A stretch of DNA of 64,000 bases from Spirochaetaceae bacterium (GCA_031278215.1 JAITKV010000034.1:1-64000); one strand, 5' to 3'. Shown: positions 32,746 through 49,099, numbered from the stretch's first letter. Translations and numbers: made by a program. Notes: generated by a model not told the origin, from the sequence alone.

Positions 32746-34007
32746 TACGTGTAGCAATCCTCCGGCAAAGAAGGCCCCTTGGTTTCTTTTTCTACGGAAA
32801 GAAGCTTTTCTATCAGTTCCCGGTTGTCCAGCAGGGAGCTGACGGACAGTTCCTGATGGAGCCGGGATATGGTCCGGGCAAAGAGTTTGCTGACACTAAC
32901 CGGAATGTACCATTCTTTTTTTAGGAGTTCCTCGTGGTACACCGCGTTGGTCCCGATGATGCGGTAAAAAAGTCCCTGCCGGAAGGCTTCGTCAAAATAA
33001 TCCATCGCGTCCCCGGAAAAGAGGGGCAGGCTTATGGCGGCTATTACATCCAGGGCTCCCTGGTCCTTGAGGAACCCCATGGCCTTAAGCAGGGTTGCCC
33101 CGGAGCCAAGAATATCATCCGCCATGAAGACCGTTTTATCTTTTACGCTGCCCAGCAGCCGTAGTTCCGCGATGTTGCTTTCGCCGGCATCCTTGGTAAC
33201 CCGGGAATAGTCCCGCTCCTTGTACAGCAATGCCAGGGGTTTTTTAAAACTATTGGCATAAAATTTATTCCGATCCACCGCTCCCGTATCGGGAGAAACC
33301 ACCACAAAATTTCCCTCCCGGATCTGGGGCATCTTTGAAAGTTCCCTGATAATTTGATAGCTGGCATGGAGGCTTTCAAAACCCATGGTCCTAAAGGCGT
33401 TGCTTATTTCCCGGGAATGAATATCCAGGGTAAGCAGCCGGTCCACGCCCAAAGATTCCAGAATGATCCCGATACGACTGGCGGTTAAACCCTCCCGGCC
33501 CTTTCGTTTATGCTGCCGTGAATAGGGATAGTTGGGAAGCACCAGGGTTATCCGCTTTGCCCCCGCCTGTTTTACCGCATCCACTGTAACCAGAACCGAC
33601 ATGATATGATCATTTACCGAAAAGGACTTACTAACGCCGCCGTGAAAAACAAGGGGATAGCGGTTTTCCACATCCTCCACAATATAAACGCATTTGCCCC
33701 TGACCGATTCAAGAATTTCCGCCTTAATTTCTCCGTTGGCAAAAAGGGTAAACCGGACATCCACCTTAAATCGGGGAGAAAGAAATTTTCCCGTCCCCGC
33801 GGTACTTAGATTTGCCGCGTCGTGGACAAATGTAAGCTGCCGAAGCACCTCGTCCCTGGTCATGCCGTGGTGGGCGGCCAGATTCGTCACGGCGTTTTCA
33901 AACTTTTGACGGTAACAATGTTTAAGGTGGACAATTACCTCATTGGCAAAGGCTTCGCCCCCCGGGCAGGCCAATACGGCAAGTTTTGACGGATCCGCGT
34001 AACTCAT
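32745..34007 (-). CDS. prs: Ribose-phosphate pyrophosphokinase-like protein
   Basis: A 420-residue protein making PRPP from ribose 5-phosphate and ATP, or a close homologue. LACPGGEAFANEVIVHL is the start, IMSVLVTVDAVKQAGAKRITLVLPNYPYSRQ the conserved active-site block and VFMADDILGSGATLLKAM the PRPP-binding loop. It is about 100 residues longer than E. coli Prs, as in the long treponemal form. ATG 34007 is chosen because a promoter sits just upstream; a longer frame to 34046 starts inside that -35 box. Coupled to the FGGY kinase gene. Confidence 0.87.
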   Translation of the reverse strand: MSYADPSKLAVLACPGGEAFANEVIVHLKHCYRQKFENAVTNLAAHHGMTRDEVLRQLTFVHDAANLSTAGTGKFLSPRFKVDVRFTLFANGEIKAEILESVRGKCVYIVEDVENRYPLVFHGGVSKSFSVNDHIMSVLVTVDAVKQAGAKRITLVLPNYPYSRQHKRKGREGLTASRIGIILESLGVDRLLTLDIHSREISNAFRTMGFESLHASYQIIRELSKMPQIREGNFVVVSPDTGAVDRNKFYANSFKKPLALLYKERDYSRVTKDAGESNIAELRLLGSVKDKTVFMADDILGSGATLLKAMGFLKDQGALDVIAAISLPLFSGDAMDYFDEAFRQGLFYRIIGTNAVYHEELLKKEWYIPVSVSKLFARTISRLHQELSVSSLLDNRELIEKLLSVEKETKGPSLPEDCYT

Positions 34008-34596
34008 GGATGGTATCAGGATACCATGTCCCTTCGATCCGGTCAAGAGCTTCCCGTCCTAAAGGCAGCTTATTCCCTGACAATTTGAAATAGAAGAACG
34101 GGGATGTCCAGGAAGTTTGCTGCTTCCCGAACACCCCTCGCGTTTGTTCCCGTTTCCTAGAGCCGTGGTTTGAGTTTACATAGGCAAACCGCTTGGTTCC
34201 GTCCCGCACCGCCTCCTCAGAACGGTAGTATGCGAATATTTTTTCTCTATCAAATTTATATTTTCTATCTATTTCTAGTGTCCCAAAGAATAAACCTTTC
34301 TCAGTAAATACCCATATTTCATTGTTTTTTATATGTGCCTGATATGCGTTCCTAACTTTGTCTATATATTCCCTTGAATATTCCGCAAGAAAATGTCCAT
34401 CCAGATCAGACAGTCGAATCCCTATTATATGACTATGTTCCTCATGCCCCATGGCGGCAGGCGCATAACTTATACCTTCAGGAAAGATCACCGTGTGGTT
34501 AAGCCGTTCTTCAAGGAACAAGTTTCCACTTGGATCACATGAGGTCATCAGAACAATATAAAGACTTACAACCAGCAAACCCGATTCCGTTTTCAT
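33940..34596 (-). CDS. Lipoprotein of Rhs module 1, with an Rhs scar near its 3' end
   Basis: A 218-residue frame starting with a lipoprotein signal (SLYIVLMTSC, Cys about 20) and a beta-rich AT-biased body (RLSDLDGHFLAEYSREY, EIWVFTEKGLFFGTLEI). It follows the frameshifted module-1 Rhs gene by 24 bases and is its candidate immunity protein. Around 34175-34215 the frame suddenly encodes VRDGTKRFAYVN, a copy of the Rhs core segment VRDGTNWFAYVN. The last 60 residues are then unrelated and run 68 bases into prs, so the natural C-terminus has probably been lost by recombination. Confidence 0.55.
   Translation of the reverse strand: MKTESGLLVVSLYIVLMTSCDPSGNLFLEERLNHTVIFPEGISYAPAAMGHEEHSHIIGIRLSDLDGHFLAEYSREYIDKVRNAYQAHIKNNEIWVFTEKGLFFGTLEIDRKYKFDREKIFAYYRSEEAVRDGTKRFAYVNSNHGSRKREQTRGVFGKQQTSWTSPFFYFKLSGNKLPLGREALDRIEGTWYPDTIHELRGSVKTCRIGLPGGRSLCQ
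34018..34046 (-). promoter_or_regulatory. prs promoter, almost leaderless
   Basis: TTGACC (34046-34041), 17 bases, TATCCT (34023-34018). The predicted start near 34011 leaves a four-base leader before the ATG. The promoter lies inside the 3' part of the upstream lipoprotein frame. Confidence 0.6.
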
Positions 34597-34620
34597 TTGA
34601 ATACTCCTTCCGTACCGGTC

Positions 34621-35395
34621 TTACGGAACCGGCGAAGTCCCAAATTGCGCATAATTGTCCGCCGCCGTTTTATATTTTGACTTACCCATAAAATCATGAA
34701 AGCCTTTTTCGTTTAATCCTCCATTCTTGATTGCCGAACCGAATATAATGGGTATCGTGAATATTCCATACGCCTGATATTGATAGGTATGCGCCTCTTC
34801 GTGTTTCCCTAAATTAACCTGTGCAGTTCCGTCGTATCTATCTGTATCTGATGCAGAATCCTTCAGTACTTCCTCTGTTCTGCCTCCAGCATGGATTATT
34901 ACATTACCAAGTGTAATAGAACCGCCCAGATTAAACCCCGTTGTAAAAGTTATCGCATTATTTTCAATACTGATTCTACCCTCCTTCCCTGCAAGAAGGC
35001 TTGTTCCGGTTAAAATCGATCCGCCGATAATGCCAATCGCCGTCGTAGGGCTTCCCCGTGTAGCCCCGGTTCATGCCGCTTTCAAGGCTGCCTTTGTGGG
35101 GCCTTCCGAACGCGTCGTATTCGTACCGGTCTTCCAGGACCCCCAACTCGTTGGTGCTTGAGCGCACGCTCCCCAGGATGTCCGTCCCCAGGTACACGGT
35201 TCCACCGACGGCTCCACCGACGGTTCTACCGACGGCGCCGCCGCGGGTCCCGGCGCTGGCGCTCCGGCTTAGCCCCACCGCTTCCCCGTTCTCGTACAGG
35301 GTTACGCTTATTCGCAGTGGGGTTTGATACCCAAGAACCCGCCTTTCGGCGGGGGGCCTCTGGGTCGATTCAGAAATGTTACGTTTAGATTGCAT
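34621..35395 (-). pseudogene. Rhs module 1: core fragment with frameshifted HEXXH C-terminal domain
   Basis: The intact frame from ATG 35395 encodes MQSKRNIS..., then an Rhs core (YLGTDILGSVRSS, DRYEYDAFGRP, RGYTGKPYD), and stops at 34976. Directly after GKPYD the shared YNYGYRDY...DPWGL segment is missing. In another frame, open from about 35049 to TAA 34621, I read a Gly-rich hydrophobic stretch (AIGIIGGSILTG) and then LGKHEEAHTYQYQAYGIF, an HEXXH zinc-peptidase-like motif at 34789-34803. The junction deletion put core and domain out of frame, so the effector is broken unless frameshifting occurs. Confidence 0.6.
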
Positions 35396-35456
35396 GGTAG
35401 CAAACCCCACAGTTAAATAATTTCCTTACAGAACGAACCTCGTAAATGATGCAACG
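35140..35456 (-). repeat. Rhs 5' cassette, copy 1 (second copy at 36770-37085)
   Basis: This stretch and 36770-37085 are nearly identical, differing by single bases and small indels. It carries a short 5' non-coding part, the start MQSKRNIS-QR-PAER and the first Rhs strands. The unusual N-terminus replaces the normal core sequence that precedes the VTLY strand in the other modules, so it is a shared promoter/start cassette spread by duplication or gene conversion. Confidence 0.7.
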
Positions 35457-35467
35457 CCTACAGGATA

Positions 35468-35488
35468 CCCCGCCGCTCTACGGCGGGG
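35468..35488. terminator. GC-rich hairpin between modules 1 and 2
   Basis: CCCCGCCG (35468-35475) and CGGCGGGG (35481-35488) pair around five bases. Downstream to about 35575 are degraded Rhs core bases (a GQTARYEGI-coding piece, 35490-35520). Confidence 0.4.
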
Positions 35489-35574
35489 AGGTTCATTCCC
35501 TCATACCGGGCGGTCTGTCCCCCGGTTAGGGTTCCGGCGCTCCGGGTCCGGTTTCCCTCCCCTTCTTCTGGCTT

Positions 35575-36102
35575 TTATATTCCACTTGCAACTGACCACC
35601 ACGATCTATTACGTCTTTTTGTTATTATTGTTTCATGTAAATATTCGCGATATTCATCGTTGAAATAAAATCTAATTTCTACTTTAACTTTTATCTTTCT
35701 TGGGAAAAATAGCGAATATTTATAGTATTTATATATATTTCCACTTTTAATATCAATATGTTCTTCAACAGGATCGATGAGCATACCATTTGATGTATAA
35801 ATATCATAGGTAACACTTATAGCCTGGAATTTTTCACTATTAGACGGCGTTGCGCCAAAAAGCAATGCGGTTTGAAAGTTACTCCATGGCAATAGATTTT
35901 CCTGCTCTAAATATGTCAAATAAATATGAACATCATCATTTTCCGTGAGTTTATCACGAAACAGGAAACTTTCTTCACCATCTTTTTTTTCATAAAACAA
36001 GATCGTATTACAACTATAAAAAAGAAGGACAAGCAGACAAACACCTCCAAGACATACTTTTGATAAAATCGGAATAAGTGACTTCGTTGTTCTCATCTTC
36101 AA
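35575..36102 (-). CDS. Lipoprotein, candidate immunity protein of Rhs module 2
   Basis: A 175-residue protein with a long signal ending in LLFYSC (Cys about 31), so lipid-anchored. The body is AT-rich in DNA and beta-strand-like (AISVTYDIYTSNGML, KIKVKVEIRFYFND). No known domain recognised. It begins five bases after the module-2 Rhs stop. Pairing and envelope location suggest protection against the adjacent C-terminal domain; a toxin accessory role is the alternative. Confidence 0.6.
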   Translation of the reverse strand: MKMRTTKSLIPILSKVCLGGVCLLVLLFYSCNTILFYEKKDGEESFLFRDKLTENDDVHIYLTYLEQENLLPWSNFQTALLFGATPSNSEKFQAISVTYDIYTSNGMLIDPVEEHIDIKSGNIYKYYKYSLFFPRKIKVKVEIRFYFNDEYREYLHETIITKRRNRSWWSVASGI

Positions 36103-36107
36103 CCCCT

Positions 36108-37019
36108 CTAATGTGATGAGCAGCTAGTTCTTGGAATAGGACCATTATAAGTGCCTAGAACTCTTTCCCAAAATTTAGTCGGGTCATCAGGTGAGTTCCC
36201 CCATTTATAGTACGGAACCATATCATTTTCAAAATGTCCCATCCAATCTGTATTCGGATCGCTAAAATTATATGTCCCTTGATTAACAGGATCGGTTACC
36301 AATTTTCCGTTCTGGTCATAAACTCCCTCTTGATGTCCATCACCAGTCATGTACTTATTGTTCTTCTCAGGTTCCACACCATTATACGGCTTTCCTTGTT
36401 CATGATAATCATCTTTATCCTCAGGCACAAGATACCATTGTGTACCATTATGATCTCTAAACGTAGGAAATGGATCATTAACATCATAACCAGGTATCGA
36501 CTCTGGCGGATGATTATTGTCATTTCTTCTATAATGTTCTTGCTTTGTTGGATCCAACCCCCAGGGATCCACCCAATTTACCGGGTCCTTGTTTACGTAC
36601 GCAAACCAGTTATTGCCGTCCCGCACCGGGTCTGTTGTCGTAAACCGCGCCGTGGCGGGCTCGTAATCCCGGTAGCCGTAGTTGTATAAGCCCGTCCGGC
36701 TGTCGTAGGGCTTCCCCGTGTAGCCCCGGTTCATGCCGCTTTCAAGGCTGCCTTTGTGGGGCCTTCCGAACGCGTCGTACTCGTACCGGTCTTCCAGGGC
36801 CCCCAACTCGTTGGCGCTTGAGCGCACGCTCCCCAGGATGTCCGTTCCCAGGTACACGGCGCCGCCGACGGTTCTACCGCTCGCGCTCCGGCTTATCGCT
36901 GCCGCTTCCCCGTTCCCGTACAGGGTTACGCTTATTCGCAGTGGGGTTTGATACCCAAGAACCTGCCTTTCGGCGGGGAGCCTCTGGGTCAATTCAGAAA
37001 TGTTACGTTTAGATTGCAT
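36108..37019 (-). CDS. Rhs module 2: truncated core with C-terminal domain
   Basis: A 303-residue protein, far shorter than a full Rhs protein (over 1000 residues). It starts at the MQSKRNIS cassette, continues through core segments (LGTDILGSVRSSANE, YTGKPYDSRTGLYNYGYRDY, FAYVNKDPVNWVDPWGL) and changes at WGL to a polar, AT-rich domain (KYMTGDGHQEGVYDQNGKLV, YNFSDPNTDWMGHFENDM). The DPWGL junction matches the PxxxxDPxGL self-cleavage motif of Rhs proteins. The domain is of a type I have seen at Rhs C-termini, but I cannot name its activity. Confidence 0.7.
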   Translation of the reverse strand: MQSKRNISELTQRLPAERQVLGYQTPLRISVTLYGNGEAAAISRSASGRTVGGAVYLGTDILGSVRSSANELGALEDRYEYDAFGRPHKGSLESGMNRGYTGKPYDSRTGLYNYGYRDYEPATARFTTTDPVRDGNNWFAYVNKDPVNWVDPWGLDPTKQEHYRRNDNNHPPESIPGYDVNDPFPTFRDHNGTQWYLVPEDKDDYHEQGKPYNGVEPEKNNKYMTGDGHQEGVYDQNGKLVTDPVNQGTYNFSDPNTDWMGHFENDMVPYYKWGNSPDDPTKFWERVLGTYNGPIPRTSCSSH

Positions 37020-37094
37020 GGTAGCAAGCCCCCACAGTTAAATAATTTCCTTACAGAACGAACCTCGTAAATGATGCAACGCCTACAAGATACG

Positions 37095-37215
37095 TTCATT
37101 GGCTGGTACGCTGCCTCCCAGTGCGCCCCGCTCCCTTCGTCCGAAAAGGCCCAGAAAACGCCATTGTTAGGATTCATGCTGAACGGCCACGCCTGCGAAG
37201 CCTGCGGCCTTTCCG
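37095..37215 (-). pseudogene. Small orphan coding remnant
   Basis: Between modules 2 and 3 the minus strand reads QAWPFSMNPNNGVFWAFSDE..., with protein-like composition. It then runs straight into the 5' non-coding part of the Rhs cassette. It looks like the broken end of an exported repeat or FISUMP/DUF1566-like protein, though the assignment is weak. The rest of 37020-37254 shows only the cassette leader and a T-rich stretch. Confidence 0.3.
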
Positions 37216-37254
37216 CTAGTTTTTAAATAAGCCGACACTTCGCATTGCAGTTTT

Positions 37255-37785
37255 TTATTCTTCAACCGATTTCTCAGTTCGTTGACACTTTGCTGATATT
37301 AAGATATATTGATACAACTTATCTCCAATATCAATGGTTTCTCTCAATTTTTCTCCTGTCTTTTCATACCAATATTCAATTAGTTGATTGTAGCTTTGTG
37401 CATACCTAATCATATTAAGTAATTCCAAAGGTTCAAGTACATCGGTTTCATCATAAAAGGAATTATTTTCTATATCCCACACGCTCTGAATGCTATCTGT
37501 TTCGATTACTTTTAATCTATTATTTTCTAAAATTGGTACTTTTTTTGTAAGAGTAAATCGATAATAACGGTTGTTAATATTATATTCGCAAGCTTCAATT
37601 GCTTTCTCCAGAAAGTCAAGTATATAGTTATACTCTTGTTCCAAATCATTCGATGTTACATTTTCTTTTGAAGTTATATAATCAGAAACAAGCGGGCTGT
37701 CTATAATCTGGGGCCAGTTTTCATCAGGAGCAATATCTAATATAAGAAAAATGAAAAATACTATAAAAAAAATATTCTTTGACAT
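37255..37785 (-). CDS. Secreted candidate immunity protein of Rhs module 3 (paralogue of 43019-43609)
   Basis: A 176-residue protein with an N-terminal signal (MSKNIFFIVFFIFLILDIA). The body is helical: LEQEYNYILDFLEKAIEA, SYNQLIEYWYEKTGEKLRE. The same pattern occurs in the 43019-43609 protein (LQAEYDYVLTFLEKALAA, TYNQLVDFWYAKTGLLIRE), so they form one family, probably immunity to the same toxin type. It starts 12 bases after the module-3 Rhs stop. No named domain recognised. Confidence 0.65.
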   Translation of the reverse strand: MSKNIFFIVFFIFLILDIAPDENWPQIIDSPLVSDYITSKENVTSNDLEQEYNYILDFLEKAIEACEYNINNRYYRFTLTKKVPILENNRLKVIETDSIQSVWDIENNSFYDETDVLEPLELLNMIRYAQSYNQLIEYWYEKTGEKLRETIDIGDKLYQYILISAKCQRTEKSVEE

Positions 37786-37797
37786 TTCATTCCTCCG

Positions 37798-39249
37798 TTA
37801 TTGTCCTTGTGGTTTGAAGCCGGATGCACTAGCAGTGTTATTTACACGAATAACCCGTCCGTTCTGAGGCATAGGCCTATTTGTTGGTAATTCCGATTTA
37901 TAGATTTGTCCATATGTTATGGTAACGTCAATACGCCGGTATTTATTCTGTGTAGAATCGAGAAACTCTCTTTCGTTTTTGGGATTTTGTATTATTACAG
38001 GATTGTTTTTTAGGGGATCCATCTTATCGTCTCTGTGTTGTGTGATTGCCATTTTGTCATCTGAGTAGTATGTATAATGGAAGTCTTGGTTATATGTGTA
38101 GGATTGTCTATTTAGTCCATAGACAGTAATTTCACTTTTTACTGTTTCCTCATAATAATACACAGGATTTAGATTATACTGAACAGTTTGAGCAATATAT
38201 TGAACTTCATCTTGTCCGCCATTGCTGCCTCTATCACTCCCACTCAGCCCCCAGGGATCCACCCAGTTGACCGGGTCCTTGTTGACATACGCAAACCAGT
38301 TGGTTCCGTCCCGCACCGGGTCTGTTGTGGTAAACCGCGTCGTGGCGGGCTCGTAATCCCGGTAGCCGTAGTTGTATAGCCCTGTCGCGCTGTCGTACGG
38401 CTTCCCCGTATAGCCCCGGTTCATGCCGCTTTCCAAGTCGCCTTTGTACGGTGTCCCGAACGCGTCGTATTCGTACCGGTCTTCCAGGACCCCCAACTCG
38501 TTGGTGCTTGAGCGCACGCTCCCCAGGATGTCCGTCCCCAGGTACACGGCTCCGACGACGGTTCTACCGACGGCGCCGCCGCGGGTCCCGGCGCTGGCGC
38601 TCCGGCTTAACCCCACCGCTTTCCCGTTCCCGTACAGGGTTACGCTTATTCCCTCATACCGGGCGGTCTGTCCCGTTGTCGTCCGGCTTGCCGTACTCCT
38701 TGTCCGGCCTTCCTGTCCCTCGCTCAGCCACCGGTACCGCTCCCCCGTGGGCGTGTTGGACGGGGCCGCGCCGTTGTTCACAACGCCGTTGCCCGCCGTG
38801 CCGCCGTTTTGCCCGCTGGCCTGTACCGGCCCGCTCGCGCTCCGGGTGGTTAGCTGCCCGTCCCTGTAGCTGGGGCCTTCCCGGATCACTTCAAAACTTC
38901 TCCCATCGTACAATGTCCGTAACACCTCGCTTCCTTCCTCCTGCGCCAGCGTCCGCCGCCCCAGCGCATCGTATCCATACCGGATTACCGTCCGGTTCCC
39001 GCTCGCCGTGTCCCGGACCTCCGCCTCCTCAAGCCGGTTCCGTCCGTTATGCCGGCCCCGGGCTATTTTATGGTAAGCCGTTTCTTGCGGGTTGTCAATA
39101 GAAATACTTTCCGGGTAAAATTTTGCCGTGGCGCAGACTGCTTTGTTCTGCCCGTTTTCCGTATCAACATACAGTAAAGGCTGCCTTTGCATAAAAATCC
39201 GGCGTATTCTCCGTCTAATCGTCCTGTAATAAATCGTCGATATACGCAA
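37798..39249 (-). CDS. Rhs module 3: longest core fragment with unknown C-terminal domain
   Basis: A 483-residue frame. The first 25 residues overlap the TPR gene on the same strand and are probably not translated. From TENGQNKAVC (the 93-bp repeat) it enters Rhs core: RTVIRYGYDALGRRTLAQEE, LRTLYDGRSFEVIREGP, TGERYRWLSEGQEGR, then the shared LGTDILGS...DPVNWVDPWGL. The C-terminal 140 residues (TVYGLNRQSYTYNQDFHYTYY, YRRIDVTITYGQIYKSELP) are unique and AT-rich. True start unclear: a promoter in the 93-bp repeat would begin transcription near 39063. Confidence 0.6.
   Translation of the reverse strand: MRISTIYYRTIRRRIRRIFMQRQPLLYVDTENGQNKAVCATAKFYPESISIDNPQETAYHKIARGRHNGRNRLEEAEVRDTASGNRTVIRYGYDALGRRTLAQEEGSEVLRTLYDGRSFEVIREGPSYRDGQLTTRSASGPVQASGQNGGTAGNGVVNNGAAPSNTPTGERYRWLSEGQEGRTRSTASRTTTGQTARYEGISVTLYGNGKAVGLSRSASAGTRGGAVGRTVVGAVYLGTDILGSVRSSTNELGVLEDRYEYDAFGTPYKGDLESGMNRGYTGKPYDSATGLYNYGYRDYEPATTRFTTTDPVRDGTNWFAYVNKDPVNWVDPWGLSGSDRGSNGGQDEVQYIAQTVQYNLNPVYYYEETVKSEITVYGLNRQSYTYNQDFHYTYYSDDKMAITQHRDDKMDPLKNNPVIIQNPKNEREFLDSTQNKYRRIDVTITYGQIYKSELPTNRPMPQNGRVIRVNNTASASGFKPQGQ
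39070..39098 (-). promoter_or_regulatory. Promoter inside the 93-bp repeat, copy A
   Basis: TTGACA (39098-39093), 17 bases, TACCAT (39075-39070), reading into module 3. Confidence 0.45.
39074..39166. repeat. 93-bp Rhs junction repeat, copy A
   Basis: The 93 bases from TAAGCCGTTTC to TTTCCGTATCA are identical to 43738-43830; the first 81 recur at 48475-48555. In copies A and C the Rhs core lies on the left and unrelated DNA on the right; in B it is the reverse. Each copy sits where similarity to the Rhs core stops. Confidence 0.75.
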
Positions 39250-41416
39250 GCCTATCTCTGTACTCTTTATTTTCCGGATCCATTTCTATAAGTACCCTTA
39301 AATCCAATCGGGCCTCCGGAAATCGTCTGGTAGTATAATACGCAAGGAACCGGTCGTAATATGCCGATTGATTACCGGGATCTAACGCCATAGCATGGGA
39401 AAAATCATCGATCGCTTCCTCCGTCATATTTAATGCCGTATAGATCGCACCCCGCGTGTTGTAATCATCGCCGTCTACCGGCCCTATCGCAAATGCCCTG
39501 GCATAATCCTCTAAGGCTTTATCGTAACTTCCCAGTTTATAATATATTTTTGCCCTATTGGTAACGGCGAGCTTAAAAGACGGATCAAGCTCTATGGCCC
39601 GGGAAAAATCATCAAGAGCCTCCTGGGTCATATTTAATTTATCGTAGATCGTGCCCCGTATGGTGTAATCATCGCAGTCCGCCTGCCATGTCTCAAATAC
39701 CCGGTTATAATCCACTAAGGCTTTATCGTAATTTCCCAGGTTATAATATAATTTTGCCCTAGTGGTAACAGCGGTCTTAGAGGACGGATCAAGCTCCACT
39801 GCCCGGCATAAATCATCAAGAGCCTCCTGCGCCATATCCATTCCCGCGTAGATTACTCCCCGCATGATGTAATCATCGCCGTCTACCGGCCCCATTTCAA
39901 ATGCCCTGGCACAATCCTCTAAGGCTTTATTGTAATTTCCCAGTTTATAATATATTTTTGCCCTATTGGTAACGGCGAGCTTAAAAGACGGATCAAGCTC
40001 CACCGCCCGGCATAAATCATCAAGAGCTTCCTGGTCCATATTTAATTTATCGTAGATCGCGCCCCGCATGTTGTAATCATCGCAGTCCGCCTGCCCTATC
40101 GCAAATGCCCGGTTGTAATCCGCCAGGGCTTTATCATAATTTCCCAGTTTGTAATACAATTGCGCCCTATTGGTAACAGCGAGCTTAGAAGACGGATCAA
40201 GCTCTATGGCCCGGGAGTAATCATCAAGGGCCTCTTGCACCATACCAAATTCTTCGTGGATCACACCCCGGGTGTTGTAATCATCGCAGTCCACCTGCCC
40301 CATTTCAAATGCCCGGTTATAATCCTCCAAGGCTTTATTGTAATTTCCCAGTCGGTAATATGTTTTTGCCCTCTTGGCAATAGCTAACTTAGAAGACGGA
40401 TCAAGCTCCACAGCCCGGGAGAAATCATCAAGGGCTTCCTGGGCCATATTTAATTTCGCATATATCATACCACGCGTAAAATAATCATCGTAGTCCGCCT
40501 GCCCCATTTCAAATGCCCTGGCACAATCCTCTAAGGCTTTATCGTAATTATCCAGATTATAATATAATATTGCCCTATTGGTAATAGCGCGCTTAGAAGA
40601 TGGATCAAGTTCTATCGCCCGGCATAAATCATCAAGGGCTTCCTGAGCCATACTCAATTCCGCGTAGATCGCGCCCCGCGAAATGTAATCATCAATATCG
40701 GCCTGCCCTGTTTCAAATATCCGGTTGTAATCCGCCAGGGCTTTATCATAATTTCCCAGATTATAGTATACGTTTGCCCTCTTGGTAACAGCGCGCTTAG
40801 AGGACGGATCAAGCTCCACGGCCCGGGAGAAATCATCAAGGGCTTTCTGTGCCATACCCAATTCCTCGTAGATCATACCCCGCATGAGGTAATCATCGTA
40901 GTCCGCCTGCCCTATCGCAAATGCCCGGATGCAATCCGCCAGCGCATTAACATAATTACCCAGTTTTTAATACAATTTAGCCCTATTGGTAATAGCGCGC
41001 TTAGAAGACGGATCAAGCTCCACGGCCCGGGAGAAATCATCAAGGGCTTCTTCCAAAGACCCTAACGCCGCATACAGTATGCCACGGTTATTAAATGCGT
41101 TAGAAAGATCAGGCCGCAGCTCAATGGCCCTAGTGTAATCTTCTAAAGCTTCTTGATATTTTCCTAAGCTATAATATGCAACCCCTCGATTATTATAAAC
41201 AAGCGCATAATTGGGATCTAAACCGATGGAGCGGGTAAAAAAATCTATGGCTCGCTCATAATTTTCCTGCTTTAAATAAATAAGACCAAAATTGTTATTA
41301 GCCTGGGCCTGATTTACCACTGCCGTATTTTGTTTTTCTTGATGCGTTTCAACATCATCTGCCGAAACATATGAAAAAAGAAACACCACATACGCAAAAA
41401 TAATATATTTTTTCAT
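39215..41416 (-). pseudogene. Exported tandem-TPR protein split by one stop codon
   Basis: Reading from ATG 41416 (SD GGAGG seven to ten bases upstream): signal peptide (IIFAYVVFLFSYVSA), then TPR units. At 40967-40969 a TAA stands where every other repeat has TAT (NRAKLY-stop-KLGNY instead of NRAKLYYKLGNY). The frame then continues unchanged to 39215; the downstream frame could restart at ATG 40885 (556 residues). About eight copies of a 68-residue unit (two TPRs; ALDDFSRAVELDPSSK, LGNYDKALADYNRAF) follow. TPR solenoids bind proteins. The gene sits inside the Rhs array. Confidence 0.75.
39430..41060. repeat. About eight tandem 204-bp repeats
   Basis: Each 204-bp unit encodes two 34-residue TPRs. 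Units are highly similar, so copy number should vary by recombination. Variation is concentrated at a few positions, such as DFS/DLC/DYS after ALD and SSK/SFK after LDP. Confidence 0.8.
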
Positions 41417-41494
41417 CTGCCTCCTCCGCCGAAATTCATAAATACATATTTATGCCGATTAGTATGTGGCATAAAACCACCATATAAAAATTAT

Positions 41495-42118
41495 CTATTC
41501 CCAGGGAAAGGGATGTTCCTTTCTATATTCTTTTTCAAATTCTTCTGATTTACTTTCAGCATAGCTAAAGATTGCTATACCGGCAAATGCGGCGGCAAAA
41601 GTAAGATCCAAACTTATACCTATCCGCAATTCATTCTGAGTAGAATACTCCACATAAAGTGATGAATAAAAATTGTAGTTAAGCCCTGACTCAAAAAGAA
41701 AAAAAAGACGCGTTCCAAAGACACCGCAGAATTTATTATCCCGGGGGGTGAATTCTCCGGTAAGAAACGGATGAGCGGTTTGCGTAAACACCCATTCGCC
41801 CCGGCCAAACAAGGACCAATAGAATATATTATGCTTCCAGGGTATAAACCCAATCTCCACAGGTAAAAATGAATGGCTTACAATATCATCTGTTCTATAC
41901 TGTTTAATTGACATTGCGCCGGTAATCAAATTCAATCTATCAAAAAAGACAGCTTCGATTTTTAAAAAATTATAATCAATCGACGAAGAAACATTTAAGA
42001 AATCATAAGATAGTCCAATATCAAAAAGCGTCCATCCCCATCGAAAACTCCTCTCCTGTGTATGGCCCTGAAGGTGAAAAAGTAAAAATAAAACTCCACA
42101 TAACCACCAGTGCTTCAT
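41495..42118 (-). CDS. Exported beta-rich protein, candidate immunity of Rhs module 4
   Basis: A 207-residue protein with a signal peptide (WWLCGVLFLLFHLQGHTQ) and many aromatic, alternating strands (FDIGLSYDFLNVSSSIDYNF, SSLYVEYSTQNELRIGISLD), like a small outer-membrane barrel. Its ATG overlaps the module-4 Rhs stop (ATGA), the tightest pairing in the array. Not recognised as a known family. It could protect the envelope or be a surface partner of the effector. Confidence 0.6.
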   Translation of the reverse strand: MKHWWLCGVLFLLFHLQGHTQERSFRWGWTLFDIGLSYDFLNVSSSIDYNFLKIEAVFFDRLNLITGAMSIKQYRTDDIVSHSFLPVEIGFIPWKHNIFYWSLFGRGEWVFTQTAHPFLTGEFTPRDNKFCGVFGTRLFFLFESGLNYNFYSSLYVEYSTQNELRIGISLDLTFAAAFAGIAIFSYAESKSEEFEKEYRKEHPFPWE

Positions 42119-43035
42119 CTTTGATTTCCGTTGAAATGTATAATTATATTAACAAACGGAAGTTTAACCGTCAGAGATGTATTTCCGCCAATTATTTTAC
42201 ACTCCATTCCGATAGGACCATGAAATCTTCCCATAGTTACGGAGTCAAGAATTTCACTTCCCTTAAAATGTATACCTAAACCAGTATTACCCAAAAGTTT
42301 ATCACCGCTAAATGAATCAACAATAAAACCAACCGTCCATCCAATTTTATCAGAGAAAGTAATTCCCGTCTTTTCCCCAACTTTTTCCAATGTTTCATTT
42401 ACTTTGTCGGCAACTTTTTCTCCGGGCGTTTTAGGAGGAATTTCGTTTTTTGGCTTATTTTGCCCATCACTCCCACTCAACCCCCAGGGATCCACCCAAT
42501 TTACCGGGTCGTTGTTTACGTACGCAAACCAGTTGTTGCCGTCCCGTACCGGGTCTGTTGTCGTAAACCGCGCCGTAGCAGGGGCATAGTCCCGGTAGCC
42601 GTAGTTGTATAAGCCCGTCCGGGTGTCGTAGGGTTTCCCCGTGTAGCCCCGGTTCATGCCGCTTTCCAAGTCGCCTTTGTGGGGCCTTCCGAACGCGTCG
42701 TACTCGTACCGGTCTTCCAGAACCCCCAACTCGTTGGTGCTTGAGCGCACGCTCCCCAGGATGTCCGTCCCCAGGTACACGGTTCCACCGACGGCTCCAC
42801 CGATGGTTCTACCGACGGCGCCGCCGCGGGTCCCGGCGCTGGCGCTCCGGCTTGTCGCTGCCGCCTCCCCGTTCCCGTACAGGGTTATGCGTATCCCTTC
42901 ATACCGGGCGGTCTGTCCTGCCGTGGAATTCCCCGTACTCCTTGTCCGGCTTGCCGTACTCCTTGTCCGGCCTTCCTGTCCCTCGCTCAGCCACCGGTAC
43001 CGCTCCCCCGTGGATAACCTATTCCGCATATTCAT
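42115..43035 (-). CDS. Rhs module 4: core fragment with C-terminal domain
   Basis: A 306-residue frame. Rhs similarity starts abruptly at STGERYRWLSEGQEGR, right where the preceding gene ends (43019), so the core was spliced into that gene's tail. Core segments follow (TARYEGIRITLYGNG, LGTDILGSVRSST, FAYVNNDPVNWVDPWGL). The C-terminal domain begins SGSDGQNKPKNEIPPK, then EKVGEKTGITFSDKIGW and GSEILDSVTMGRFHGPIGME. Its activity is unknown. Four-base overlap with its partner gene. Confidence 0.65.
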   Translation of the reverse strand: MNMRNRLSTGERYRWLSEGQEGRTRSTASRTRSTGNSTAGQTARYEGIRITLYGNGEAAATSRSASAGTRGGAVGRTIGGAVGGTVYLGTDILGSVRSSTNELGVLEDRYEYDAFGRPHKGDLESGMNRGYTGKPYDTRTGLYNYGYRDYAPATARFTTTDPVRDGNNWFAYVNNDPVNWVDPWGLSGSDGQNKPKNEIPPKTPGEKVADKVNETLEKVGEKTGITFSDKIGWTVGFIVDSFSGDKLLGNTGLGIHFKGSEILDSVTMGRFHGPIGMECKIIGGNTSLTVKLPFVNIIIHFNGNQR

Positions 43036-43609
43036 TAAGCCCTGATTCTCTTCTCACGGCTTCCACTCGATCGGATTCTTCCGGAGTCAGTTCCCTTACT
43101 TCAATACTTGTATCGTTTGATATTATAAATGCCCATAACTCTTCTTTTGCCGCAAGAGCAAGTTTCTCTCGTATCAGTAAACCGGTTTTCGCATACCAGA
43201 AATCAACCAGTTGATTATAAGTTGAAAGACACATGGAAAAAAAAGAATATTCTAGTAAAACAAGAATATTTACTTTTTCACGCATACCCCGGCTGGTACC
43301 AACAAATAATGTGTCAGCAACTTCATTTATTACAAACACCCCGTTTTCAAATGCGGGTTGACGTTTTATTAAACTGTTTTCAGTATAATAGTTGACAATA
43401 TTTGCTTTATACGCCGCCAGGGCCTTTTCGAGAAAAGTTAAAACATAATCATATTCTGCCTGTAAATCATCCGCATTCAAGCCTTGTTTTTGCTGGATAT
43501 ATTTTTTAGCTAAATAATAAGAAATATCTGGCGGCCAGAAATCATTTGCCACGCAATTGCTTGTGGTGATAACAGCTAATACCATACAAAGTGATACTCG
43601 GATAAGCAT
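43019..43609 (-). CDS. Secreted candidate immunity protein of module 5 (paralogue of 37255-37785)
   Basis: A 196-residue protein with a signal segment (VSLCMVLAVITTSNCVAN; the Cys could be a lipidation site). Conserved with the module-3 partner across LQAEYDYVLTFLEKALA, NSLIKRQPAFEN and TYNQLVDFWYAKTG. Its own Rhs gene (43620-44103) is reduced to a core piece and a short tail, so it may be an orphan immunity gene kept for protection. Its last 17 bases overlap the start of module 4. Confidence 0.65.
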   Translation of the reverse strand: MLIRVSLCMVLAVITTSNCVANDFWPPDISYYLAKKYIQQKQGLNADDLQAEYDYVLTFLEKALAAYKANIVNYYTENSLIKRQPAFENGVFVINEVADTLFVGTSRGMREKVNILVLLEYSFFSMCLSTYNQLVDFWYAKTGLLIREKLALAAKEELWAFIISNDTSIEVRELTPEESDRVEAVRRESGLNEYAE

Positions 43610-43619
43610 ATTACCTTCC

Positions 43620-44103
43620 TTAATTATTCAGGGAAACCCATTTTGGGCTGCTGTACCGGGATTTCCTGATACTTGGCCTTTCTTTGGCGGACTCAATGAT
43701 TGCGGCAAAGAAGGGGCTTGTAGTATTGTGCCAAGTGTAAGCCGTTTCTTGCGGGTTGTCAATAGAAATACTTTCCGGGTAAAATTTTGCCGTGGCGCAG
43801 ACTGCTTTGTTCTGCCCGTTTTCCGTATCAGCCGGTTCTCCCCATCGTACTCGTACTCTATCGTCCCCCACGGCGTCTTCTTGCTCGCACGGTTCCCGTT
43901 CCCGTCGTAGGTATAACTTTCGCGCCATACCATCCCCCACGCCCTTACCGCATTCCCCCGCCCCGGTCCCGCCTGGTTTAGCACGGTCCGTAACGCCGCC
44001 ACTTCCTCGCCACTATAACTGTACCGCTCCCCGGTCCCCTTGTCCACCGTAAAGTATATGCCCGCCTCTTCCGCTTCCGCCTGCCCCTCCGTCCACGGGT
44101 ACT
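43620..44103 (-). pseudogene. Rhs module 5: central core fragment, C-terminal domain mostly lost
   Basis: From 44103 (TEGQAEAEEAGIYFTVDKGTG) a core region not present in the other modules is readable: SYSGEEVAALRTVLNQAG, RESYTYDGNGNRASKKTPWG, IEYEYDGENRL. It meets the 93-bp repeat (43738-43830) and changes frame there. In the repeat's frame a 39-residue tail (SPFFAAIIESAKERPSIRKS) runs to a stop at 43620. No start codon with a ribosome site is evident. Confidence 0.6.
43734..43830. repeat. 93-bp junction repeat, copy B, with promoter
   Basis: The repeat is 43738-43830. TTGACA (43762-43757), 17 bases and TACACT (43739-43734) form the best of the three promoter versions; its -10 box extends into the unique left flank. 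Confidence 0.65.
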
Positions 44104-44184
44104 AGGTCGAGCCAAGTATCAAAGGTATCGTTTAGTCATAAATCAAATTACGATTAATGAAATTTAACTTATTGTCATTACAAA

Positions 44185-44667
44185 TTATCGAAAAAATAAG
44201 GATGTCCGCCTTATTCTAAAAGTTATTTTTTGATAATATTGGGCAAAAGTATCGTCAAATGATATATCCTTAATCGTTATTTGTAAGTTCCCTTTTCTAC
44301 TCCAAAAAAAATCTCCTGGAACACTAAAAAGCGGCCGCCCCCTCCCTAAAGCAACGCCTTCCAGAACAAATGAAAAACTTTTACTTTTTATTTTCCCCTT
44401 TTGATTCATTTCAACAATACAGGAAAAATAAATCGGTTCATCGTTTCTTCTTAGCCTTTCTATATCATAAGGTTCAAACCAGACTTCTATATGATGAAAC
44501 CCTGTGGCTAATTTATCAATGGTAATAGTTATGTCGTTATTTGCTTCCAGGTTATATTCTTTTTCACCCAATAATTCGGAACTTCCAAAACTATTTTGCC
44601 CAAATAATTTCAAAATTCCAAAGAGACAAAATGGAATTAAAAAAATTATTTTTTTTCGTATTTTCAT
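44185..44667 (-). CDS. Exported candidate immunity protein of Rhs module 6
   Basis: A 160-residue protein. Start at ATG 44667 gives a signal peptide (IIFLIPFCLFGILKLFGQ) and has GGAG upstream; a longer frame to 44715 lies inside the Rhs gene. The body is a beta-sandwich-like sequence (YNLEANNDITITIDKLATG, HHIEVWFEPYDIE). It begins four bases after the module-6 stop. Not recognised. 44104-44184 is AT-rich and empty. Confidence 0.6.
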   Translation of the reverse strand: MKIRKKIIFLIPFCLFGILKLFGQNSFGSSELLGEKEYNLEANNDITITIDKLATGFHHIEVWFEPYDIERLRRNDEPIYFSCIVEMNQKGKIKSKSFSFVLEGVALGRGRPLFSVPGDFFWSRKGNLQITIKDISFDDTFAQYYQKITFRIRRTSLFFR

Positions 44668-44671
44668 TTTC

Positions 44672-45303
44672 TTATTCTCCGCTCCAATTAGGCAGGTTTC
44701 TATCATCGTAATCATTCCCTGGATTCACCAGAACTTCGCCAAAAAAATGTTTCAGCGTCTCTCCGGGCCCTTTAATTGGATCATAGTAATCTTGATGGAC
44801 ATAAATCCCGTCTGCTTCCTGTGTTACATGATAACCGTCATCTACTCGTTGGTTCTTCCCATGAAATCCCAGATCATCAACAAAATTACCCCAAGGCTTG
44901 CCGGGTTCATAATTCCTTACAGATTCAGGTAAATCATTCCAGCTTTCTGCTATTTTTTCATGTATAAATAGATCTTTCGGACCATCGCGTTCCACTCTCT
45001 GTTGTCGTATAAAATCCATAAACTCATCAAATTCTTTCTTATCGCTGGCCGTCAACCCCCACAAATCCACCCAATTTACCGGGTCGTTGTTTACGTACGC
45101 AAACCAGTTATTGCCGTCCCGCACCGGGTCTGTTGTGGTAAACCGCGCCGTGGCAGGGGCATAGTCCCGATACCCGTAGTTGTATAGCCCTGTCGCGCTG
45201 GTGGTTGAACGCACGCTCCCCAGAATATCTTTTCCCAAGTATGCCATCCCCGTACTCCGGCTTAAGGCCACCGCTACCCCGTTCCAGTACAGCGGTACCG
45301 TTC
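44672..45303 (-). CDS. Rhs module 6: very short core with C-terminal domain
   Basis: Core similarity begins near 45303 (VTLY-type strand) without a clear start; the first usable codon is GTG 45271, giving 199 residues. An in-frame deletion joins LGSVRSTTSAT directly to GLYNYGYRDYAP, dropping the DAFGRP...GKPYD part. The cleavage motif reads DLWGL instead of DPWGL. The domain (FDEFMDFIRQQRVERDG, DDGYHVTQEADGIYVHQDY) is polar; function unknown. Confidence 0.6.
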
Positions 45304-45313
45304 TTTATTTTCG

Positions 45314-45904
45314 TTATTCAATGCTAATTCCAAATATTTTAAGCATTTCCTTTTGACTTGCAGTTTTAACATACTCAATGTATGACTTGTGCTCATCAGG
45401 TAGATTTAATTGCTGTAACTGAGCGAAATATAGTTCTTCGCCGTTGGTATCACCGATAAGTCGACTCAATAAATACATATTTTCAAAAATTGGAAGCTTA
45501 TCAGCTTTATCATCTAATTGTTTCTGATAAAAATCTATTGCGTTTTGATAGTAATCTTGTGCCATTTTGCGGTCGTTTTGTTGCAAACTTAATGCACATC
45601 CGGCAGCGTACATTTCCACATAATCAGGATACCTTTGAAGCACTTCATTTATCGTGGGCATAGCCATATTAAATTGCTCACTGCTAAGCAATAGTTGCAT
45701 TTTTATTGCATAATCAGTTTTCTTATGATGTTTTATGATACGCTGGTCCAATATATCGAAAGCTGCTTGTGTTTTTCGCGAATTGGTCGGGTCCATAAAA
45801 GCTGCTTGTATTACTTGTTGTTCTTCGTTTGTTATTATCTCTTTGCCTTCAGAACAAGAATTTAATAGTGTTAATGCAATAATAAGAAAAATGAAATTCC
45901 TCAT
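45314..45904 (-). CDS. TPR-like lipoprotein, candidate immunity of Rhs module 7
   Basis: A 196-residue lipoprotein (ALTLLNSC, Cys about 17). The helical body has TPR-like pairs (TINEVLQRYPDYVEMYAAG, RKMAQDYYQNAIDFYQKQL). Its ATG overlaps the module-7 stop (TAATG). The helical repeat type differs from the beta-rich partners of modules 2, 4 and 6. No named immunity family recognised. Confidence 0.62.
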   Translation of the reverse strand: MRNFIFLIIALTLLNSCSEGKEIITNEEQQVIQAAFMDPTNSRKTQAAFDILDQRIIKHHKKTDYAIKMQLLLSSEQFNMAMPTINEVLQRYPDYVEMYAAGCALSLQQNDRKMAQDYYQNAIDFYQKQLDDKADKLPIFENMYLLSRLIGDTNGEELYFAQLQQLNLPDEHKSYIEYVKTASQKEMLKIFGISIE

Positions 45905-47151
45905 TATTCTCTCCCTTTTGAAATGTTAATCGTTGTTGTATTTAAAGACGAAACTACAACCCAGCCTTCCGGGTTATTATAGCTATAACCAGTTCCCGAT
46001 ACTACAACTTTAACTTCTCCGGTTTTTGGAAGATTAAACGAAGCCTCGCCTATCATTCTGGATGTTGTGTTAATTAAATAGTCTTGTTTGGGTTCTTGCA
46101 ATGTTTTTGTTACGACTGATTTATTATCCACAACAAGCGTAGCTTGTCCAAAATATTGAATATCATCATGTTTAAGTTGTGGTCCAGAAATACTTATAAC
46201 TGTGACAGTAGCAGTAAAGTCATCTTGCCCTTGTTTTATCTCAGCATGTGTTAAAGTAGTATATCCCCCTGCAAAACCTTCTCCCTCAGCTAGGACATAT
46301 ACAATATGGTTTGTGGTAACAGATGTTAGACCCTTAGTATAATTATTTTCTACTTGTTGTCCAATTTGGAAGGAATTTCCCGATTGTTTTTCGCTGGCCG
46401 TCAACCCCCACAAATCCACCCAATTTACCGGGTCGTTGTTTACGTACGCAAACCAGTTATTGCCGTCCCGCACCGGGTCTACCGTGGTAAACCGCGCCGT
46501 TGCCGGCTGGTAGTCACGGTAGCCGTAGTTGTACATCCCCGTTGTCGCGTCATACGGCTTTCCCGTGTAGCCGAGGTTCATCCCGTTTTCAAGGCTGCCC
46601 CTGTGGGGCCTTCCGAACGCGTCGTATTCATACTTTTCTTCCAGCGCCCCTGTCGCTCTGGTGGTTGAACGCACGCTCCCCAGAATATCTTTTCCCAAGT
46701 ACGCCGTCCCCGTGCTCCGGCTTACGGCCACCGCTTCCCCTTTTCCGTACAGCGTTACGCTTATCCCTTCATACCGGGCGGTCTGTCCTGCCGTGGAATT
46801 CCCCGTACTCCGAGTCCGGCCTTCCTGCCCCTGCCTGCGGCTCTCCGCCATCCTCTCTTCTTGTCTTTGCTTAGTATAGCATACACCTGTTACCAGTGCA
46901 ATGGTTTTTATCCCGGCTAACGGGAACCGCTGGTTTTCGGCTTGCATAATTACCACTACCGGGAAGCGGCTGTCTTTTTTTCCCGGTTCTCCGCCGGGGC
47001 CGCTTTGTGCATCCATGAGTTCTATTCCAGATACGTGTTTTTTGGTGATTTTTAAATTAGTTGGCACTACGTTATAACTTAATTTTTCTTCCGTTTCCAT
47101 ATATTTTGTACCTATTACCATCCATATCATCAATAATAAAATGGTCTTCAT
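45904..47151 (-). CDS. Rhs module 7: core fragment with beta-rich C-terminal domain
   Basis: A 415-residue frame. The first 25 codons overlap the module-8 partner gene in another frame. Rhs similarity starts near 46835 (GQEGRTRSTGN). Core continues TARYEGISVTLYGKG, LGKDILGSVRSTTRATG, YEYDAFGRPHRG and DPVNWVDLWGL (Leu in the cleavage motif). The C-terminal 170 residues are Thr/Val-rich strands (TATVTVISISGPQLK, GEVKVVVSGTGYSYNN), resembling an Ig-like or adhesin domain more than an enzyme. Confidence 0.62.
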   Translation of the reverse strand: MKTILLLMIWMVIGTKYMETEEKLSYNVVPTNLKITKKHVSGIELMDAQSGPGGEPGKKDSRFPVVVIMQAENQRFPLAGIKTIALVTGVCYTKQRQEERMAESRRQGQEGRTRSTGNSTAGQTARYEGISVTLYGKGEAVAVSRSTGTAYLGKDILGSVRSTTRATGALEEKYEYDAFGRPHRGSLENGMNLGYTGKPYDATTGMYNYGYRDYQPATARFTTVDPVRDGNNWFAYVNNDPVNWVDLWGLTASEKQSGNSFQIGQQVENNYTKGLTSVTTNHIVYVLAEGEGFAGGYTTLTHAEIKQGQDDFTATVTVISISGPQLKHDDIQYFGQATLVVDNKSVVTKTLQEPKQDYLINTTSRMIGEASFNLPKTGEVKVVVSGTGYSYNNPEGWVVVSSLNTTTINISKGRE

Positions 47152-47641
47152 TGATAATTATTCTTCGACCATCTTTTTGTTTATAAGTTTGCATCCACAA
47201 CAATTCCCCATTTGAATCATCAAACGCATAAGCTTTTTCGGCAAAGACCAAAATAAAATAATTTTTTATCGAAAAAAAGTCCCTAAATCTAAAAAATCCA
47301 TCTTTTTCATAAGGGACATCTTGTTTGGTTTTGATATTGATAATAAGTGTATAACTAGCATATGCACCATCATTCATTTCTTCCATAATATTTATACCAC
47401 ATAAATTATTTTTCCTATTTACTGTAAGCAGTGATTCATATATAGGATATTCCATACCCCGTTTTTTGTATACAAAGAATTTTTTACAAAACTCAATAAT
47501 TCCATTTTCCCTAATTATTAATTTTTCATTCTCATTTAGTATTATCTCATATGGCAATTGAACTATTTTTGTTTCAGAAGCTTGTGTAAATGCGTTTGAG
47601 ATACAAGCTGTTATCATTAAGAAAAACATCGGTTGTTTCAT
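47072..47641 (-). CDS. Exported candidate immunity protein of Rhs module 8
   Basis: A 189-residue protein with a signal peptide (FFLMITACISNAFTQ). The body is AT-rich in DNA and beta-propeller-like (DGFFRFRDFFSIKNYFILVF, AFDDSNGELLWMQTYKQKDG). It begins 13 bases after the stop of the M23-peptidase Rhs module. As a periplasmic protein it could block a cell-wall peptidase. No known family recognised. Confidence 0.6.
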   Translation of the reverse strand: MKQPMFFLMITACISNAFTQASETKIVQLPYEIILNENEKLIIRENGIIEFCKKFFVYKKRGMEYPIYESLLTVNRKNNLCGINIMEEMNDGAYASYTLIINIKTKQDVPYEKDGFFRFRDFFSIKNYFILVFAEKAYAFDDSNGELLWMQTYKQKDGRRIIINEDHFIIDDMDGNRYKIYGNGRKIKL

Positions 47642-47654
47642 AAAACCTCCATTG

Positions 47655-48323
47655 TTAGTAATTGAAAATTTCAGTCGGATTAATTGTATTCTGACCCTCT
47701 CCTGCCCAAGAAGGAGTGTTTACACCATCAATTCTTACCATTAAATCCACATGAGGACCAGTTGAAGCGCCAGCTCCTGTAGTCCCGGGGGTACCTCCAC
47801 TTAAACCTATGACTTGTCCCGCTTCAACTCTGTCACCATTTTGAACATCTACCTGACTCATATGACTTGTAATAACTCTATAATTTCCATCAGGATTAAG
47901 ATTTGTTGACTCAGGATGAAGAGCGACAAACTGACCAAAAGTTGGCGTTTCTCCAATTACTACGGTTCCCGAAGCAGCCGCAATGACCGGTGTCCCTTGA
48001 GCAACACTAATATCTATTGATGTGTGGAATTGCGGTTCACCCGTGAACGGGTTATTTCTCATTCCGTAACCGCTTGAGATAGGTCCATTAACAGGGTTGA
48101 TCCATTCAGCAGGCGGTGTATTAGTACTTTGTCCTGTATCACTTGCCGTCAACTCCCAGGGATCAATCCAGTTCACCGGGTTGTTGTTTACGTACGCAAA
48201 CCAGTTATTGCCGTCCCGCACCGGGTCTGCCGTGGTAAACCGCGCCGTGGCGGGGGCATAGTCCCGGCAGCTGGGCCCTTCCCGTATCGTTTCAAAGCTT
48301 CTTCCGTCGTACAGCGTCCGCAT
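47655..48323 (-). CDS. Rhs module 8: short core fused to M23/LytM peptidase domain
   Basis: A 222-residue frame from ATG 48323; Rhs core similarity continues upstream to about 48555 without a clear start. A microhomology deletion joins the REGPS region directly to CRDYAPATARF. After WIDPWEL the C-terminal domain (residues about 75-222) is an M23 metallopeptidase: SGYGMRNNPFTGEPQFHTSIDI (HxxxD zinc pair), GTPVIAAASGTVV, VITSHMSQ, ENGQ-like GDRVEAGQVIGLSGGTPG, ASTGPHVDLMV. The usual HxH is H-V-D. Such enzymes cut peptidoglycan cross-bridges, so this is a likely cell-wall-degrading effector. Confidence 0.75.
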   Translation of the reverse strand: MRTLYDGRSFETIREGPSCRDYAPATARFTTADPVRDGNNWFAYVNNNPVNWIDPWELTASDTGQSTNTPPAEWINPVNGPISSGYGMRNNPFTGEPQFHTSIDISVAQGTPVIAAASGTVVIGETPTFGQFVALHPESTNLNPDGNYRVITSHMSQVDVQNGDRVEAGQVIGLSGGTPGTTGAGASTGPHVDLMVRIDGVNTPSWAGEGQNTINPTEIFNY

Positions 48324-48560
48324 CGTCTGCCCGCCTTCCTCCTGCGCCAGGGTCCGCCGCCCCAGCCCGTCGTATTCATGCCGGATTACCGTCCGATACC
48401 CGCTCGCCGTGTCCCGGACCTCCGCCTCCTCAAGCCGGTTCCGTCCGTTGTACCGGCCCCGGGCTATTTTATGGTAAGCCGTTTCTTGCGGGTTGTCAAT
48501 AGAAATACTTTCCGGGTAAAATTTTGCCGTGGCGCAGACTGCTTTGTTCTGCCCGCTTCT
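48324..48560 (-). pseudogene. 5' Rhs remnant of module 8 with junction repeat copy C
   Basis: The minus strand reads ARGRYNGRNRLEEAEV, YRTVIRHEYDGLGRRTLAQE in the same frame as the gene that follows. The 81-bp repeat (48475-48555) carries TTGACA (48499-48494), 17 bases, TACCAT (48476-48471). Right of 48556 similarity stops; 48556-48649 holds only a short hairpin CGCAAG/CTTGCG (48611-48629) before the fliJ stop. Confidence 0.6.
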
Positions 48561-48649: not shown

Positions 48650-49099
48650 CTAAACTCCCAGGGTAAGGGCTTTTCGTGCCGCGGCGCCGCTTGAAATATC
48701 GTCGATCATCTTAATTTCTTCCCGCAGGGCTGTTTTCCGGTATTCCTTTTGACGGCGTTCCTTAAGTTTATCAATTATCTTCCGGTCCCGGGAAGCTTCC
48801 AGGTATACTTTCCGCGCCTCTTCCACCGTCAGTTCCGCTTTGGCGGCGGCCTCTAAAAGGGCGTTCCGGGTTTGATCCAGCCTAAGTATGTACAGGTCGT
48901 AACTGCGTATTTCTGCCGCCCCGTGATCCTTCGCAAAACGGTTTCCCGCGGCCCTGGTTTTTTCTTCCGCCGCCGTTTTTATCCGCAGTTCCAGGGCCGA
49001 AAGGGCCCCCACCGCCCTGCCCAGTTCAACTTCTGTTTCCTGTTCCCGGTTTAAGCGAAGCTTTAGGATCTTTTCCAGTTCAAAGTTAAAACGTTTCAC
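48650..49099 (-). CDS. fliJ: Flagellar export chaperone-like protein FliJ
   Basis: A 149-residue coiled-coil protein beginning MKRFNFELEKILKLRLNREQE, typical for FliJ, which forms the central stalk on the FliI ATPase ring and escorts substrates in type III flagellar export. It is the last gene of the flagellar operon here, three bases after fliI. The Rhs array starts directly beyond it. Confidence 0.88.
   Translation of the reverse strand: MKRFNFELEKILKLRLNREQETEVELGRAVGALSALELRIKTAAEEKTRAAGNRFAKDHGAAEIRSYDLYILRLDQTRNALLEAAAKAELTVEEARKVYLEASRDRKIIDKLKERRQKEYRKTALREEIKMIDDISSGAAARKALTLGV

Follow-up and report, generated by a model that had tools for sequence, protein, structure and literature searches.

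Truncated Rhs modules with export-type partner genes in a Spirochaetaceae genome: a probable store of toxin tips and bank of immunity genes

Arrays of orphan rhs-CT/rhsI modules have been known since 2011 and, like orphan cdiA-CT/cdiI modules, consist of truncated cores with unrelated tips, in arrays of up to eleven pairs (PMC3150448, PMC3967940). Poole et al. found start signals to be absent from most orphan tips, whereas the immunity genes of orphan modules can be expressed (PMC3150448), and reloading of an orphan module onto a full-length rhs gene by recombination has been reported for Salmonella (PMC3967940). Also relevant are the Sec-dependent RHS polymorphic toxins surveyed by Zhang et al. 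2012 (PMC3482391), a survey in which all but a few immunity proteins are cytoplasmic, with Imm65 the only lipoprotein among them and some immunity proteins of L,D-peptidase toxins being secreted. A third group comprises polyimmunity loci and acquired interbacterial defence systems (PMC3482391, PMC10470768), in which immunity genes of many families run in one direction; polyimmunity loci by definition have no toxin cassettes between these genes (PMC3482391).

We analyzed a 64,000-nt stretch of DNA from a Spirochaetaceae bacterium (hereafter the window), in which eight truncated Rhs modules (R8 to R1, with tips T8 to T1) and eight small partner genes (I8 to I1) lie on the minus strand between fliJ, which ends at 48650, and prs, to which similarity begins near 34047 (Table 1). 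ORF and repeat analysis of the window gave the same module order, strand, coordinates and core repeats as an earlier note on this DNA, together with the same gaps between R fragment and partner (-4 to +24 bases) and the same contrast in composition, measured here as approximately 55-67% GC in the cores versus mostly 27-45% in the tips and partners. Like the orphan modules of Poole 2011 and Koskiniemi 2014, the array has cores of variable length, a small gene directly behind each tip (8/8 modules) and tips that mostly lack start signals. Unlike them (PMC3150448, PMC3967940), it is accompanied by no full-length gene, either upstream or in the rest of the assembly, all of its partners look exported, its host is a spirochaete, and a TPR-repeat gene lies within it.

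Table 1. Features of the array, with positions counted from the first nucleotide of the window.
Feature	Position	Strand	Description
R8	47655..48560	-	core fragment and M23 peptidase tip (47655-48149); TIGR03696 E=1.4e-10
I8	47072..47641	-	partner, export-signal-like N-terminus; Shine-Dalgarno -10.0
R7	45904..46851	-	core fragment, tip 45904-46401; TIGR03696 E=1.2e-19
R7 start	likely ATG 46851; open frame extends to 47151	-	
I7	45314..45904	-	partner, lipobox LNSC; weak TPR-like matches
R6	44672..45304	-	internally deleted core, tip 44672-45052; TIGR03696 E=5.8e-15
I6	44185..44667	-	partner, export-signal-like N-terminus; homologue in G149
R5	43620..44101	-	upstream core piece, 94-nt segment 43737-43830, 39-residue tail; no tip
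I5	43019..43609	-	partner, lipoprotein-like N-terminus, I3 homologue; Shine-Dalgarno -7.5
R4	42115..43035	-	core, tip 42115-42477; TIGR03696 E=3.9e-20
I4	41495..42118	-	partner, export-signal-like N-terminus, beta-barrel-like model; homologues in L077, L160, L161
TPR-repeat gene	39215..41416	-	signal-peptide-like N-terminus; in-frame TAA 40967-40969; Shine-Dalgarno -11.7
R3	37798..39249	-	longest core fragment, tip 37798-38244; TIGR03696 E=1.3e-18
I3	37255..37785	-	partner, export-signal-like N-terminus; homologue behind T3-like tip in L159
R2	36108..37019	-	core, tip 36108-36554, head inside dispersed repeat; TIGR03696 E=9.4e-20
I2	35575..36096	-	partner, lipoprotein-like N-terminus
R1	34621..35410	-	core ORF 34976-35410 and tip 34621-35070 in different frames; in-frame homologue L080
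I1	33940..34596	-	lipoprotein-like partner; 3' end is core scrap 34167-34211 (repeat D8), enters prs start region
94-nt segment	39073..39166 (R3); 43737-43830 (R5); 48474-48558 (R8)	-	
Dispersed repeat	36941..37093; 35317-35468	-	at R2 head; second copy at R1

Mapping the R fragments onto a full-length relative, L041 (1,905 aa), bore out the claim that each begins at a different point of one Rhs core, the fragments corresponding to residues 1331-1729 with differing starts. The cores are mostly 70-94% alike on alignment, as had been expected of them, and share a common descent. R8, R7, R6, R4, R3 and R2 score above the cut-off for the NCBIfam RHS-associated core, TIGR03696; R1 retains only the middle of that core (residues 1588-1665 of L041) and R5 the most upstream piece (residues 1331-1441). 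Unrelated tips start after the DPxGL of the shared core, with R5 and R1 as degenerate exceptions. The description of seven of the eight modules as carrying different C-terminal domains stands for six intact tips and needs correction for R1, which carries a deletion and a frame change and is broken because its tip lies in another frame than its core. R5 has indeed lost its tip and kept a 39-residue tail, which sits directly after a 94-nt segment common to R3, R5 and R8. R3 and R5 have exactly the same 94 nt and R8 departs from them at one position, whereas the adjoining R3 and R8 core differs by 13% (p=8e-4). The reading frame of the segment varies between modules, and within the segment lies TTGACA-17-TACCAT (TACACT in R5); we rejected it as a mobile element, there being only three copies, all inside the array.

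The frames of the intact tips and partners are open beyond chance, as approximately 9-19 stops would be expected in each from shuffled sequence and none was observed in 14/14. Partners survive better than tips, with all eight partners open and six of the eight tips intact; both this and the exported look of the partners were missed in the earlier note. Damage elsewhere in the locus includes an Rhs core scrap fused to the 3' end of I1, apparently the trace of one more module, and one in-frame TAA in the TPR gene, which is made up of eight 204-bp repeats and is possibly another partner minus its tip, or the TAA is possibly a sequencing error. Together with the broken R1 and R5 and further core scraps on contig C23, these features would suit an array of neutral relics left by earlier tip exchanges and functionless now. 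We regard this as improbable, given the 14 stop-free frames and the ribosome-binding sites that the partners have kept.

All eight array partners have an N-terminus that is charged and then hydrophobic, resembling an export signal, and I1, I2, I5 and I7 were judged by eye to be lipoprotein-like. Export signals on every partner point to toxins that hit the cell envelope and not the cytoplasm. With one simple hydrophobicity test, the same for partners and for other ORFs, 47 of 56 partners of Treponema-type Rhs tips were positive versus 59 of the 166 other ORFs (36%) in the same loci, with p=2e-10, a value that overstates the excess of partner export because a crude rule was applied to related loci. 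Some Treponema partners were negative by this rule. Among Spirochaetota outside the family, seven of nine usable loci have an export-type partner, a count from few loci, some of them doubtful, and in other phyla an export-type N-terminus was found in one of six annotated partners, a small sample. All 18 full-length relatives examined begin with what looks by eye like a signal peptide. A signal peptide on full-length relatives, RHS repeats and exchangeable C-terminal tips with adjacent cassettes are features in common with the Sec-dependent RHS polymorphic toxins; unlike in that survey (Zhang et al. 2012, PMC3482391), where immunity is nearly all cytoplasmic, export-signal-like partners are the rule here. 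The exported location of the partners is the element that is new relative to the known orphan arrays.

Searches of the array against Pfam, NCBIfam and the PDB gave clear matches only for T8, the RHS core and the TPR gene. T8 matches Peptidase_M23 (E=2.3e-17). M23 peptidases are the class that cuts the cell wall. T8 retains the HxxxD motif but shows HVD in place of the customary HxH, which leaves its activity in doubt; it may be inactive. M23 tips also occur in relatives (L057 and L068), and a sub-threshold YkuD match was found among T. bryantii tips; as judged from these matches, the tips with recognizable domains would agree with an envelope site of action. T1 contains an HEEAH (HExxH) motif. 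Domains like T2 also occur in two proteins encoded apart from any Rhs gene (in L156 and L157), both of which stand alone and have an export-signal-like N-terminus. The AF2 model of I4 (pLDDT 69) has fold matches mostly to outer-membrane barrels, none below E=0.02, a hint that this partner may resemble a membrane barrel; a single-sequence model of T2 was discarded at pLDDT 35.

The ribosome-binding sites separate partners from R fragments. Shine-Dalgarno pairing reaches -6.6 kcal/mol or lower in seven of the eight partners, the exception being I4, which overlaps R4, and only 15% of the ATGs of the region reach -6. No start was found at the head of the R fragments, except perhaps in R7 and R2, where an ATG close to the head comes with a Shine-Dalgarno, and none of the fragments has a convincing signal peptide. 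This pattern agrees with the description of orphan tips by Poole et al. (PMC3150448), and most R fragments, having neither a start at the head nor an export signal, are unlikely to be expressed as short proteins, one of two fates offered in the earlier note. A dispersed repeat of approximately 150 bp gives R1 and R2 their first codons (MQSKRNI...GYQTPLR); copies on G000 C31:33092, C6:14270 and other contigs abut gene starts there. A promoter scan (45 sites versus 30 expected) was set aside as evidence.

The starts of R7 and R2 are also what one would look for if the R fragments were translated as short toxins that act in the same cell and are neutralized by their partners, and one study describes Salmonella RHS elements as acting as toxin-antitoxin modules (PMC7043789). 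However, the fragments mostly have no head start and have no convincing signal peptide, and the export signals of the partners mean that these would not meet a cytoplasmic toxin. We therefore consider such a toxin-antitoxin arrangement very improbable.

Pairs of tip and partner are also found adjacent to each other in other genera, once strongly and twice more weakly, indicating that they are real units. G032 (L040/L080) has a T1 homologue (54% identity, E=9e-39) that stands in frame after the core, and behind this tip comes an I1 homologue (45%, E=9e-41); in L080 the core preceding the T1 homologue is longer and leaves the contig end, so that a complete gene is not visible. The weaker cases are in G015 (L077), where a T4-like stretch (E=0.045) precedes an I4 homologue (36%), and in G125 (L159), where a T3-like start (E=0.003), a weak tip match, precedes an I3 homologue (35%). 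In G213 (L162), a T6-type tip is attached to an Rhs core of a different kind, and I3 and I5 are homologous to each other (E=8e-22), showing that two modules had related partners. On complete genes, an M23-class tip sits on the full-length Rhs of L057, and no close match of the array tips was found.

The edges of the array are sharp, as DNA similarity to two same-genus genomes (86-92%) stops at 34047/34048 on the prs side and at 48651/48657 on the fliJ side, beyond which the remaining approximately 0.1-1.9 kb of the same-genus contigs have no similarity to the array. Since fliJ and prs are on separate contigs in both genomes, neither shows an intact empty site. As the earlier note stated, the window has no full-length rhs gene. 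That note also proposed a distant master gene; we searched the whole assembly, a MAG of 62 contigs that is 80% complete, with the core, RHS_repeat and L041 as queries and found no full-length rhs of the array's core, the only matches being the array and the scraps on C23, and the N-terminal 1,330 residues of a full-length relative had no match either. At this completeness the gene could simply be missing from the assembly, or the system may be dead here. In two near-complete genomes of the same order, G385 and G040, more than 20 Rhs-core matches each lie on contig C1, around 2.58-2.65 Mb and 2.00-2.03 Mb, where short ORFs adjoin ORFs of >3,200 aa, possibly arrays beside their master genes. The related records are Treponema or Spirochaetaceae MAGs, the closest of which presumably come from termite guts, and we found no literature on Rhs of termite Treponema.

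The C23 scraps form a second, decayed Rhs site (G000 C23:88857-89853, L083), in which a core scrap with a T2-like tip is followed by another core scrap, with no partner between this tip and the second scrap. The tip is 67% identical to T2, and the difference between the two amounts to 75% at synonymous sites and 21% at nonsynonymous sites, which implies past constraint on this type of tip. The reverse arrangement is seen in L160 (G121 C91, 4204-6040), where I4-type and I3-type genes lie adjacent and tip-less amid scraps of Rhs core; the ORF of the I3 type there runs on into an apparent thioredoxin-like domain. Like polyimmunity loci and acquired interbacterial defence systems (PMC3482391, PMC10470768), the array has immunity genes of many families in one direction, but six intact tips lie among its partners, and L160 is closer to the polyimmunity kind. 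The array might be an immunity island only, in which partners are kept against the Rhs toxins of neighbors and the tips are debris being lost, with no recombination into a master gene. The better survival of partners (8/8 open versus 6/8 tips intact), their strong ribosome-binding sites, the lack of a master gene in the assembly and the tip-less G121 locus all favor this explanation, whereas the six tips still intact and the past constraint seen between T2 and its C23 copy, the latter from small numbers, disfavor it. On balance we think it unlikely.

What is seen directly is the anatomy, the intact frames, the export-signal-like N-termini, the recurrence of pairs and an assembly without a full-length gene; toxicity, protection, expression and reloading of the array modules we infer. 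The array is probably an orphan rhs-CT/rhsI store combined with an immunity bank, belonging to a Sec-exported, envelope-acting Rhs system. Each module would be the 3' terminal part of an rhs gene (core stretch, tip and immunity gene) that recombination in the shared core either displaced or brought in. The tips would mostly go untranslated in place. The partners would use their own ribosome-binding sites for expression and, once exported to periplasm or membranes, would protect there against envelope-acting tips of the same type on the full-length Rhs proteins of relatives. Core recombination could also return a stored tip and its protector to a full-length rhs gene. The tip reservoir of the earlier note thus fits the anatomy and the orphan rhs-CT/rhsI literature, but its master gene was not located in the 80% complete assembly. 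Counting against this reading are the broken R1 and R5, the partnerless C23 tip, the HVD of T8 and the Treponema partners that are not exported.

More broadly, there is about an even chance that Treponema-type spirochaetes have a separate Rhs branch with Sec-exported, envelope-acting tips and exported immunity proteins, in which arrays serve as an envelope-immunity bank. Judging by N-termini and the I4 model, the immunity proteins of this branch would be periplasmic proteins, lipoproteins and, perhaps, an outer-membrane barrel (I4). The array adds several unclassified families of spirochaete tips and partners, and the literature searched describes none of this kind in spirochaetes. Descriptions of polymorphic-toxin immunity proteins nearly always place them in the cytoplasm. 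Exported protectors as the rule of a lineage would point to a different site of toxin action, and they would account for the survival of the producing cell while a Sec-exported toxin passes out of it.
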